This document shows, piece by piece, positions 28,272 through 31,897 of a stretch of 34,153 nt of DNA. Below the pieces are notes generated by a model. The model was not told the DNA's origin, searched no databases, and saw only the letters and a program-made list of their open reading frames with translations. Source of the DNA: a virus; IMG/VR virus record IMGVR_UViG_3300017719_000070, positions 1 to 34,153 of that record. One strand, written 5' to 3'. A program made the position numbers and the translations under genes. The first letter of the stretch is position 1, and each line of letters opens with the position of its first letter.

Positions 28272-28727
28272 GTGCCAAATTATTATCAGGGTAAATTTAA
28301 GCCCCGTAATCCACAAAAATATAAAGGCGACCCATCGAATATAATTTATAGGAGCGGATGGGAACTCAAGTTGATGTCTTATTTAGATAAGCATCCTCAT
28401 GTGATTAAATGGAATAGCGAAGAAATTGTTATACCATATCGCTCGCCAATCGATGGGAGAATGCATAGATATTTTCCAGACTTTTATGTGGAACAGATAA
28501 ATAAACAAAAGCGTAAAGAAAAAGTGCTTATAGAGGTGAAGCCTTATGCTCAAACAAAACCTCCAAAGGTACAGAACACAAAAAGAAATAAGCCTACCAA
28601 GCGATATATAAATGAAGTAAAGACTTGGGGAGTTAATTCAGCTAAATGGAATGCGGCTGAAGAGTTCTGTAAAGATAGAGGTTATATCTTTCGAATCATA
28701 ACAGAAAATGAATTAGGAATAAAATAA
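28272..28727 (+). CDS. gp4: Head completion protein gp4/gp50, PD-(D/E)XK nuclease fold
   Basis: A 151-residue homologue of the T4 head-completion protein gp4 (gp50), almost identical in length (150). Landmarks are KYKGDPSNIIYRSGWELKLM, SEEIVIPYRSPIDGRMHRYF, PDFYVE near residue 70 and LIEVKPYAQTKPP near 87-100. The PD...EVK pair matches a PD-(D/E)XK nuclease core, as in TnsA-like enzymes. gp4 is needed to finish filled heads before tail joining, perhaps by trimming DNA. The start is GTG at 28272 with GGAGAG upstream; an ATG at 28270 is in another frame and stops after about 24 codons. The next gene begins in its stop codon (TAATG). Confidence 0.9.
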   Translation: MPNYYQGKFKPRNPQKYKGDPSNIIYRSGWELKLMSYLDKHPHVIKWNSEEIVIPYRSPIDGRMHRYFPDFYVEQINKQKRKEKVLIEVKPYAQTKPPKVQNTKRNKPTKRYINEVKTWGVNSAKWNAAEEFCKDRGYIFRIITENELGIK

Positions 28728-29170
28728 TGTACGAATATAAATGTAAAGTGGTAAAGATTGTTGACGGTGATACTGTAGACGTAGATATTGATCTAGGCTT
28801 TGGTATCTGGATGAAGAATGAAAGAGTTCGCATCATGGGTATTGATACACCAGAATCAAGAACAAGAGACTTAGTTGAGAAGAAGTTTGGCTTAGCGGCT
28901 AAAGAAAGACTCAAGCAATTACTAGGCGATAAGCCAGTATTAAAGACTCAGATTGCTAAAAATGGCGAAGATATGAAGGGTAAGTTTGGTCGTATTCTTG
29001 GCGATTTTGATGTATATGATACTAAGACTGACTCATGGAGACCAGTCACAAAAGTATTGATGGATGAAGGCCATGCTGTTGACTACTACGGTGGTTCAAA
29101 AGAAGAGATTCAAGAGCAACATATGATCAATAGACAAAGATTGATCGAAGAGGGTGTAGTAATACTATAA
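28727..29170 (+). CDS. Staphylococcal-nuclease-like (thermonuclease) protein
   Basis: A 147-residue protein that matches the SNase/TNase fold over its whole length. The first strands contain VVKIVDGDTVDVDIDLGFG, with the Asp cluster typical of the calcium site. The catalytic block RVRIMGIDTPESRTRD carries the Arg and Glu expected at the active site, and GKFGRILGDF near residue 87 supplies the second Arg. The end (VTKVLMDEGHAVDYYGG) is also typical. It should therefore cut DNA or RNA using calcium. No signal peptide is present, so it acts in the cell or in the virion. It lies between head completion and tail genes, joined to both neighbours by TAATG overlaps. Similar genes sit at this place in marine T4-like phages; a role in DNA degradation or packaging is inference. 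Confidence 0.92.
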   Translation: MYEYKCKVVKIVDGDTVDVDIDLGFGIWMKNERVRIMGIDTPESRTRDLVEKKFGLAAKERLKQLLGDKPVLKTQIAKNGEDMKGKFGRILGDFDVYDTKTDSWRPVTKVLMDEGHAVDYYGGSKEEIQEQHMINRQRLIEEGVVIL

Positions 29171-29774: not shown

Positions 29775-30536
29775 ATGGCTTTCAATATAAGTGACTTTAA
29801 TTCAAAGGTAAACAAACATGGGCTTGCCAAGAACAATTTGTTTTTTGCTAGAATTACTTTGCCAAAATCAATCACAAACGAACTAACTGCTACATCACCA
29901 ATTGTCAGAGATATTGAATTTTTCTGTAGAGGTGTGACGTTACCAGAACTAGATATTACTACAGGAGATGTTCAGCCTCAGGGATTTGGACCAGTTGTTC
30001 GTAGACCACAAGGAATAAATTTTCCGGTGTTGCCTGCTACGTTTATGGTTGACTCGGAGTTCGGTGTATTGAAGCTATTTCATAGATGGTCACAGGCCAT
30101 AGTGAACTATGACACTAGTGGCGGTAGGTTTGCAGGAGTGAATAATCAGTTGCCTTTCGAGTTAGGATATAAAGAAGACTATCAAGCAACAATGCAAGTC
30201 GCAGTATATTCTCACGGCTCAAGATCAGTAGAGTATCTATATGAGTTTAGTGGATTATATCCTGTGAATGTTGGTAGTATGGAAGCATCTTGGATGAACG
30301 ATGCTGAAGTAATGACTCTTCCAGTAGGATTCTCATACGATGAACTCAAAGTAACAGGTGCCAGAACAGGTAAAGTTCTTTCTGACAGACCAGGCTCAAC
30401 TACAGGAAAGTTATTGAAGTGGTTCTCGTCAATTAACAGTGCAGTAAACACAATAGAAAGTATTACGAAACCTGCTGGTGTACAGGATGCAATCAATCAA
30501 ATTAATAACATAAACAATATAGTTGAATCATTTTAA
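29775..30536 (+). CDS. Tail-tube-fold protein (gp54/gp19-like)
   Basis: A 253-residue protein with the pattern of the tail tube fold shared by gp19, gp48 and gp54. Landmarks are KNNLFFARITLP near residue 20, EFFCRGVTLPELDITTGDVQ, VLPATFMVDSEFGVLKLFHRW and EFSGLYPVNVGSMEASWMND. In T4 the main tube gene 19 follows the sheath gene 18. This copy instead sits next to gp26 and the probable tape measure, so a baseplate-proximal tube-initiator role (gp54-like, 320 residues in T4) is more likely. The C-terminal 45 residues form a helix-rich Asn/Ile tail. The binding site AGGAAAAGAG is directly before the ATG. Confidence 0.7.
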   Translation: MAFNISDFNSKVNKHGLAKNNLFFARITLPKSITNELTATSPIVRDIEFFCRGVTLPELDITTGDVQPQGFGPVVRRPQGINFPVLPATFMVDSEFGVLKLFHRWSQAIVNYDTSGGRFAGVNNQLPFELGYKEDYQATMQVAVYSHGSRSVEYLYEFSGLYPVNVGSMEASWMNDAEVMTLPVGFSYDELKVTGARTGKVLSDRPGSTTGKLLKWFSSINSAVNTIESITKPAGVQDAINQINNINNIVESF

Positions 30537-30564: not shown

Positions 30565-31266
30565 ATGGCTTTACCAAAGATCGATTTACCTCTTTTTGAG
30601 TTGAATTTACCATCAGACGACAGTGTTGTCAAATATAGACCCTTTACAGTAAAGGAAGAAAAGATTCTTCTAGTTGCTCAAGAGTCAAAAGATCCCAATC
30701 AAATGGTATTGGCGATGAGACAGATAGCAACAAATTGCTGTCCAGACATAAGCATAGACGAACTGGCTATGTTTGATTTAGAGTATATCATGCTACAGAT
30801 CAGATCGAAGTCTATAGATAATAAGATTAATTTTACTATCAATGATCCAGATACGAACAATCCAGTGAACTTAGAACTGGATATAGATGAAATTGATTTG
30901 ACGACAGATGAGAGCCACACTAAAGAAATAACTATATCGGACGAGATGTATTTAATGATGCGCTATCCTAGACTTAATGAAGTCAGTGTTTTTCTTAATG
31001 TCGTAGAAAATCCAACTGAGTCGTTATTCGATGTGATGATTGCGTGTATTGACTGTGTAGTTGCTGGAGATGAAGTACAGAAACTAGAAGACTTTACCAA
31101 AGAGGAAGTAATTCAGTTTGTCGAAACATTCCCTGGAGGCACTATTGATGCCATACAAAAGTTTTTTGAAACTATGCCTAAACTTAGATTCAAGTCAACT
31201 TATATGAATAGTGAGGGAGAAGAGAAAGAAGTCTTACTAGAGGGTACAGAAACTTTTTTTCTCTAA
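30565..31266 (+). CDS. gp26: Baseplate hub / tail assembly protein gp26 (T4_baseplate family)
   Basis: A 233-residue member of the family I know as the T4 baseplate gp26 group (T4 gp26 is 208 residues). The N-terminus is typical: LPLFELNLPSDDSVVKYRPF, then TVKEEKILLVAQESKD, IATNCCPDISIDELAMFDLE and YIMLQIRSKS. gp26 is needed for hub assembly. The ribosome binding site TAGGAG lies 8 bases before ATG. The gene ends in GAA ACT TTT TTT CTC TAA: an in-frame T_TTT_TTT slippery run at codons 230-232, followed by the stop. A -1 slip would yield a 289-residue fusion with the next ORF. The stop also overlaps that ORF's ATG (TAATG), so re-initiation is an alternative. Such pairs upstream of a tape measure recall lambda gpG/gpGT. 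Confidence 0.9.
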   Translation: MALPKIDLPLFELNLPSDDSVVKYRPFTVKEEKILLVAQESKDPNQMVLAMRQIATNCCPDISIDELAMFDLEYIMLQIRSKSIDNKINFTINDPDTNNPVNLELDIDEIDLTTDESHTKEITISDEMYLMMRYPRLNEVSVFLNVVENPTESLFDVMIACIDCVVAGDEVQKLEDFTKEEVIQFVETFPGGTIDAIQKFFETMPKLRFKSTYMNSEGEEKEVLLEGTETFFL

Positions 31267-31325
31267 TGTTGTGTCATACTAGCTTAGGGAATTATTATAA
31301 AACTATATTCTCATTGGCGCAACAT
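31254..31325 (+). other. Putative -1 programmed frameshift site: T_TTT_TTT plus downstream stem
   Basis: Seven T residues (31254-31260) fall in frame as T_TTT_TTT at the end of gene 26. Five bases later, 31266-31273 (ATGTTGTG) can pair with 31318-31325 (CGCAACAT) for 8 bp including one G-U. Inside the 44-base loop, 31287-31292 (GGGAAT) can pair with 31307-31312 (ATTCTC). A -1 slip enters the frame of the following 55-codon ORF and yields a fusion of about 289 residues spanning 30565-31433. The heptamer, spacing, stem and frame all agree; actual frameshifting is untested. Confidence 0.6.
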
Positions 31326-31433
31326 CATAAATACACTATAGGCGATATAGAAGCATTACTACCATACGAGCGTGATTTGTATGTAGATATGCTAATAGAC
31401 TTCGTAGAAGAGCAGAAGAATCAACAACAATAA
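31266..31433 (+). CDS. Small ORF after gp26; probable frameshift extension (gpT-like part)
   Basis: A 55-codon ORF beginning with ATG inside the gp26 stop (TAATG) and lying in the -1 frame of gene 26. If reached by frameshift the joined part begins SLMLCHTSLGNYYKTIFSLA and ends DFVEEQKNQQQ. The middle, HHKYTIGDIEALLPYERDLY, has the look of small proteins that follow gp26 in T4-like phages and of the C-terminal part of tail assembly chaperones; that likeness is from memory and not searched. No membrane span. It might be made alone by re-initiation, as a gp26 fusion, or both. A fusion that binds the tape measure while gp26 alone binds tube subunits would be the lambda-style model. Confidence 0.65.
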   Translation: MLCHTSLGNYYKTIFSLAQHHKYTIGDIEALLPYERDLYVDMLIDFVEEQKNQQQ

Positions 31434-31444
31434 TGGAGTAAATG

Positions 31445-31771
31445 ATGAGTGAAGAAACAAAAGCAGAAGTGTTTCACCCTGCTGACACAAACGGTGATGG
31501 ACAAGTATCTAAACAAGAAGAGCAGTTATACCTCGAGTTTAGACGAAAAGAATTAGAAGATGCAGATGCTATGCGTGATGCACAGCGTAACATGACATGG
31601 TTTGCTCTTGGTGGTTTGTTGTTGTACCCATTCGCTGTTGTTCTAGCATCTCTTGTAGGTCTAGATCAAGCACAGAAAACACTAGGCGATATGGCACCGA
31701 CATACTTTGTCGCTGTTGCCGGTATCGTAGCCGCATTCTTTGGCACACAGAACTTCGGCAAGAAGAAATAG
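31445..31771 (+). CDS. EF-hand protein with two membrane spans
   Basis: A 108-residue protein (109 if the ATG at 31442 is used). I prefer 31445 because GGAG at 31435-31438 is then 6 bases away rather than 3. Residues 14-25 are a canonical EF-hand loop, DTNGDGQVSKQE, with all calcium-ligand positions filled. A charged helix follows (about 26-50). Two hydrophobic helices come next: about 51-73 (WFALGGLLLYPFAVVLASLV) and 85-101 (TYFVAVAGIVAAFF). The C-terminus is basic (KKK). The design, a soluble calcium-binding head on a helical hairpin in the inner membrane, could suit a holin, a calcium-sensing membrane factor or a tail-associated membrane protein. No family function is known to me. It lies between gp26 and the tape measure with a short TM protein following. 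Confidence 0.8.
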   Translation: MSEETKAEVFHPADTNGDGQVSKQEEQLYLEFRRKELEDADAMRDAQRNMTWFALGGLLLYPFAVVLASLVGLDQAQKTLGDMAPTYFVAVAGIVAAFFGTQNFGKKK

Positions 31772-31780
31772 GAGTAGATT

Positions 31781-31897
31781 ATGGACCCAGTAGAGGCGTG
31801 GAACTCGTTATCATATTTTGACGGTGTACTATTCACTGTCTGGTTAGGTATTATGTATTACGGAAAAAATTTAATCGATCAATGGTTCGGAAAATAA
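31781..31897 (+). CDS. 38-residue single-span membrane protein
   Basis: A small ORF with a good ribosome binding site: GGAG at 31771-31774, 6 bases before ATG, overlapping the stop of the EF-hand gene. The protein reads MDPVEAWNSLSYFDGVLFTV, then WLGIMYYGKNLIDQWFGK: one hydrophobic aromatic-rich helix (about residues 12-27) with a basic/amphipathic tail. The stop is 6 bases before the tape measure start, so spacing is operon-like. It may work with the EF-hand membrane protein. Function unknown. Confidence 0.65.
   Translation: MDPVEAWNSLSYFDGVLFTVWLGIMYYGKNLIDQWFGK

Follow-up and report, generated by a model that had tools for sequence, protein, structure and literature searches.

A conserved slippery heptamer very probably joins gp26 and gp51 into short and long tail assembly chaperones in an uncultured marine T4-like phage

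A frameshift in tail assembly chaperone genes is a device well known among phages, and in a 2016 review T4 was still listed as the exception (PMC5009743). T4-like tail assembly chaperones were then reported by Vladimirov, Gautam and Davidson (Virology 2022, 566:9-15). As cited in later papers, that study found that T4-like TAC-N genes carry poly-T shift signals (PMC12846349) and, in some T4-like phages, separate short and fused long genes (PMC10885494). As far as these accounts describe it, the gp26 and gp51 families and the short and long chaperone forms are the same as those found here. The hint in the original prediction that no such arrangement had been described in T4-like phages was thus incorrect, and, since both the chaperones and the poly-T signals had already been reported, the present finding is a rediscovery in a new, uncultured member of the group, together with an RNA element for which no description was found. 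Both T4 proteins, gp26 and gp51, have been counted among the hub assembly chaperones, the latter being needed for assembly yet absent from the particle (PMC3004832), which is consistent with the chaperone reading. A -1 poly-T shift at the end of TAC-N is also known from the TAC locus of Pseudomonas phage Adele and the Vandenendeviridae, where the downstream ORF again has a gene annotation of its own and all genomes keep the frame open; unlike the locus studied here, it has a GTTTTT motif and belongs to a different family (PMC12846349).

The DNA analyzed here (hereafter the window; 34,153 nt) is an IMG/VR viral fragment from an uncultured marine T4-like phage. Its gene 26 ends in GAG GGT ACA GAA ACT TTT TTT CTC TAA, followed by TG (Table 1). 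Relative to the gene 26 start, the heptamer has the phase X_XXY_YYZ that is needed for a tandem -1 slip, and TTTTTTT occurs only once in the window when both strands are scanned. The downstream ORF (31266-31433, 55 codons) lies in the -1 frame relative to gene 26. Re-reading from T31260 gives TCT CTA ATG, so that the junction reads FF-SL, and the fusion of both ORFs, open to 31433, is exactly 289 aa long. An in-frame T_TTT_TTT before the gene 26 stop codon and a fusion of about 289 residues through a -1 shift into a 55-codon ORF had both been predicted from the window, and both were confirmed at the sequence level. Compared with lambda gpG/gpGT, the locus differs in its T_TTT_TTT site and in the two small genes that precede the probable tape measure gene; no sequence relation to the lambda pair was shown.

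Table 1. Features at and around the junction of gene 26 and the gp51 ORF in the window, and gene 26 ends of Ackermannviridae-type relatives.
Feature	Position	Strand	Evidence
Tail tube gene, directly upstream of gene 26	29775..30536	+	phrog_45 E 1.2e-36; PF23849 E 1.6e-07
Gene 26 / TAC-N, zero-frame product of 233 aa	30565..31266	+	PF12322 E 2.6e-53; phrog_150 E 2.3e-58
Shine-Dalgarno-like GAGGG, possible stimulator, 9 nt 5' of heptamer	31240..31244	+	GAG codon bias
Slippery heptamer T_TTT_TTT	31254..31260	+	Same in 49/51 relatives, T_TTT_TTC in 2; lowest third-base entropies in gene
-1 frame extension, SL + 55 codons, gp51 / TAC-C domain, which would complete the 289-aa TAC-NC	31260..31433	+	phrog_634; fusion sequence; frame open in all relatives
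Zero-frame stop TAA, overlapped by gp51-frame ATG (TAATG)	31264..31266	+	Sequence
11-bp putative stimulatory stem, 5' arm	31266..31276	+	Folding, covariation, synonymous-recoding test
11-bp putative stimulatory stem, 3' arm	31315..31325	+	Folding, covariation, synonymous-recoding test
Probable tape measure gene, 554 aa	31904..33568	+	Weak profile matches, best phrog_794 E 7.4e-07, plus position
Ackermannviridae-type gp26 ends (L092, L093, L094, L096, L206, L210)			e.g. G_ATT_TTC, A_CTT_TTC, G_GCT_TTC

Both proteins could be assigned to families. The gene 26 product scored 181.4 bits against T4_baseplate (PF12322; curated cut-off 24.5) and also matched phrog_150, while hhalign aligned the window gp26 family with T4 gp26 at E 4.2e-8. 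The small ORF (31266-31430) matched phrog_634 ('baseplate hub assembly catalyst', gp51) at E 8.3e-22, as did the gp51 ORF in 24 of 24 relatives tested and T4 gp51 itself (E 1.2e-23); direct hhalign alignment of the window gp51 ORF with T4 gp51 222-242 was weak (E 0.0016, probability 16%). The predicted structure of gp26 (pLDDT 84) matched gp26-family models in a viral structure library and, in addition, W5ZRX8, an entry named for the function of gp51. A Foldseek search of the gp26 model against the PDB yielded no significant solved tail assembly chaperone (HK97 2OB9, E 2.3), and in a Pfam search the family Phage_TAC_4 fell below cut-off (E 0.15). Family knowledge and gene order suggested a chaperone function for gp26 and gp51.

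Conservation of the junction was analyzed in 80 IMG/VR relatives, reduced to 51 non-redundant sequences at <90% identity, whose gp26 shared 47-84% amino-acid identity with that of the window. All 51 carried a heptamer close to the gp26 stop codon, and the -1 frame was open in each, in L070 as far as its sequence extends. With Met and Trp columns set aside, the third bases of the three slip-site codons showed the three lowest entropies among 225 gp26 columns. These values were also below those of invariant-residue codons elsewhere in gp26, a comparison within one gene that controls in part for shared ancestry. Given amino acids and codon usage, the probability of a chance heptamer was about 0.28 for a single gene; multiplied naively across all 51, this gives about 1e-30, a value that overstates the significance because the genes are related. 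No second in-frame T_TTT_TTY was found in the 11,323 codon positions of the 51 gp26 genes, which, with the low third-base entropies, ruled out a chance heptamer. Retention of the heptamer, the -1 phase, the open frame and a downstream stem had been proposed as the check on relatives, and this was the pattern observed; a missing heptamer, a random frame relation or an intervening stop, named beforehand as outcomes that would count against the proposal, was seen in none of the 51.

Downstream of the heptamer, the window contains a stem of 11 pairs with a 38-nt loop and two G-U pairs (minimum free energy -14.8 kcal/mol; z -2.7, single sequence). The predicted start, 5 nt 3' of the heptamer, was correct, but the predicted length of 8 bp was too short. 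Among the 51 relatives, the 60 nt from 5 nt past the heptamer had a mean z of -3.8 against dinucleotide shuffles, with all values below -1, whereas four control stretches gave z between -0.2 and 0.1. Since the stem region also encodes the gp51 domain, its fold was re-tested against random synonymous recodings. The observed -18.1 kcal/mol compared with -6.6 kcal/mol for the recodings (mean z -4.4; control stretch, 0.13), and a stem arising as a by-product of coding was thereby rejected.

The 11 pairs could form in 90.7% of cells across the relatives, as against 26-46% for slid controls. Both sides of a pair had changed in 39 cells, compared with 16.8 expected by shuffling, a count reached in 0 of 500 shuffles; covariation was clearest at columns 16/69, where C-G replaced U-A in 20 sequences, and at columns 19/66, where A-U became U-A or U-G. 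Run on the full alignment, RNAalifold recovered five pairs only, corresponding to the top of the stem, and two outer pairs (columns 13 and 14) were broken in 7 and 18 sequences, respectively. Direct pair counting supports the 11-pair stem overall. Three relatives (L020, L021 and L077) lacked a stem of the window type and showed different local hairpin folds.

Upstream of the heptamer, the Glu codon in the GAGGG column was GAG in 31 of 45 cases, compared with 31% elsewhere in the same genes. This sequence may help the slip by pairing with 16S rRNA, and it recalls Shine-Dalgarno-stimulated frameshifts such as that of dnaX. The Escherichia coli dnaX element likewise consists of an upstream Shine-Dalgarno-like sequence, a slippery heptamer and a downstream stem. 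The window element differs from it in its T-rich heptamer, its large loop and the unrelated gene in which it lies. No Rfam family matched the stem element, and no description of a clade-specific stimulatory stem was found in the literature compared, which covered Vladimirov et al. (2022) as summarized in later papers.

Cyanophages, pelagiphages, and Vibrio and Rhizobium phages shared this layout, with different heptamers and hairpins. Among named T4-like phages, T_TTT_TTC was found in S-PM2, P-SSM7, syn9, Vibrio nt-1, Moby, Aeromonas P19, ACP17 and ORM_20, T_TTT_TTT in HTVC008M and phiN3, and T_TTT_TTG in P10VF, always in phase and with an open -1 frame. At the cyanophage and pelagiphage loci, the 40 nt just 3' gave a mean z of -2.8 (-2.6 against synonymous recoding), and the hairpins there represented several unrelated sequences. 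The occurrence of unrelated hairpins at near-equal distance in other marine T4-like lineages suggests that the stimulator turns over while the heptamer stays fixed. On balance, and with some reserve, the shift site of the window's clade is taken to carry an undescribed stimulator conserved at the RNA level (the 11-bp large-loop stem plus the Shine-Dalgarno-like GAGGG), replaced in the course of evolution around a fixed heptamer. Ackermannviridae-type relatives had a shorter T run and an open -1 frame, with no downstream hairpin at their gp26 ends; in these phages the shift may come about in another way that involves a single tRNA.

In T4 and in a Campylobacter phage, the long form is encoded by one uninterrupted gene. 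T4 gp51 consists of a PF12322 domain (E 3.9e-52) and a phrog_634 region fused in frame, and T4 gp26 and gp51 are detectably similar to each other (E 2e-6). An hhalign comparison of the window gp26 alignment with T4 gp51 gave no domain-wide match, although PF12322 matches gp51 strongly. Genes 26 and 51 of T4 are adjacent and divergent, and gene 26, which is followed by gene 25, keeps the FF residues near its end as TTC TTT, without a heptamer, which excluded protein-level conservation of FF as sole cause of the heptamer. Because the T4 long form has its own gene and gene 26 lacks the heptamer, the shift site is absent where the long form is separate: T4 has two genes, the window phage one shift site. 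The abstract of Vladimirov et al. reportedly describes frameshifting as a conserved feature of several T4-like groups, with genes 26 and 51 taking its place in T4.

Alternatively, gp51 could be a separate small protein made by termination-reinitiation at TAATG, the T run being incidental. An ATG or GTG overlaps the gene 26 stop codon in many relatives as it does in the window, where the gp51 ORF has its own ATG, and gp51 is entered in GenBank as a gene of its own. Within the first 14 codons past the shift site, however, whose encoded residues are conserved, ATG was absent in 24 of 51 relatives and ATG, GTG and TTG were all absent in 8. All three were likewise absent near the junction in 15 of 54 relatives in a second set, which comprised cyanophage, pelagiphage, Vibrio, Rhizobium and other relatives and may overlap with the first. 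In the window, moreover, the first stem pairs involve the ATG, which is preceded by TTTTCTCTAATG (also given as TTTTCTCT), in which no Shine-Dalgarno sequence was found, and neither the conservation of the heptamer nor the stem would be accounted for. Separate initiation as the main mechanism was rejected in view of the relatives that lack start codons, and translational coupling in place of a shift is considered very unlikely; as an addition to frameshifting in the window, termination-reinitiation is possible. GenBank gp51 starts lie well within the domain in P-SSM7 (L083 2591-2686), syn9 (L084 2546-2689) and HTVC008M (L086 2546-2683), a pattern that a search for start codons during annotation would produce, and these annotations are probably truncated calls of a frameshift extension.

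A fusion could also arise from a mixed mRNA pool through transcriptional slippage, with no slip of the ribosome, since homopolymer runs can make the polymerase slip and the window has seven consecutive T. Many relatives, however, have at most six (T_TTT_TTC, T_TTT_TTG) and keep the exact codon phase, and the conserved downstream RNA stem, 5 nt from the heptamer, is in keeping with ribosomal frameshifting. With six-T variants in existence, transcriptional slippage appears extremely improbable, even less credible than coupling. It counts against ribosomal slippage at the window site that constructs in E. coli shifted less at U_UUU_UUU than at A_AAA_AAG (PMC5009743).

Ribosomal frameshifting is thus the preferred reading: judged from sequence, it is highly likely that gp26 and gp51 form one unit from which a -1 slip yields a short and a long tail assembly chaperone. 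Where gene 26 ends, a one-base backward slip of the ribosome very probably gives some copies the gp51 domain as a C-terminal extension. Most ribosomes would end at the gene 26 stop codon and release TAC-N, and a minority would pause at T_TTT_TTT before the stem, slip by -1 and produce TAC-NC. If the pair works as gpG/gpGT does in lambda (reviewed in PMC5009743), TAC-N in large numbers and a few copies of TAC-NC would bind the tape measure, recruit tail tube subunits and then leave the particle. The heptamer, its phase, the open frame, the stem and their conservation were observed directly in the DNA, and from them we infer the slip and its modest rate. Together with the protein families, these features support well the proposed recasting of gp26 and the following ORF as a G/GT-type chaperone pair.

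In databases, gp51 from marine T4-like phages stands as a gene of its own, named 'baseplate hub assembly catalyst' and in many cases truncated, while the present evidence points to a frameshifted tail of gp26. As the long chaperone form, gp51 would join these phages to lambda-type tail assembly, with the two separate genes of T4 as an alternative solution. The shift element is ready for use in reporters of short-to-long chaperone ratios.

The gene order of tail tube, chaperone pair (30565-31433), two small genes and probable tape measure, the last a weak assignment, fits the predicted position of a tape measure gene after two small genes. BLASTP of the tape measure candidate against the HTVC008M tape measure gave no alignment (E 0.18). 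The first of the small genes (31442-31771, + strand) encodes a protein of 109 aa in which an EF-hand-like loop (HPADTNGDGQVSKQEE) precedes hydrophobic stretches; pelagiphage HTVC008M has a close homologue in the same position, and in other relatives a variant is present or the protein is missing. The second (31781-31897, + strand), just before the probable tape measure gene, is a 38-aa ORF with a hydrophobic stretch that matched phrog_9048 (unknown function; E 2.3e-10). Farther upstream, a Staphylococcal-nuclease-like protein (28727-29170, + strand; PF00565, E 2.5e-09) is encoded between gp4 (head closure) and gp2 (DNA end protector).
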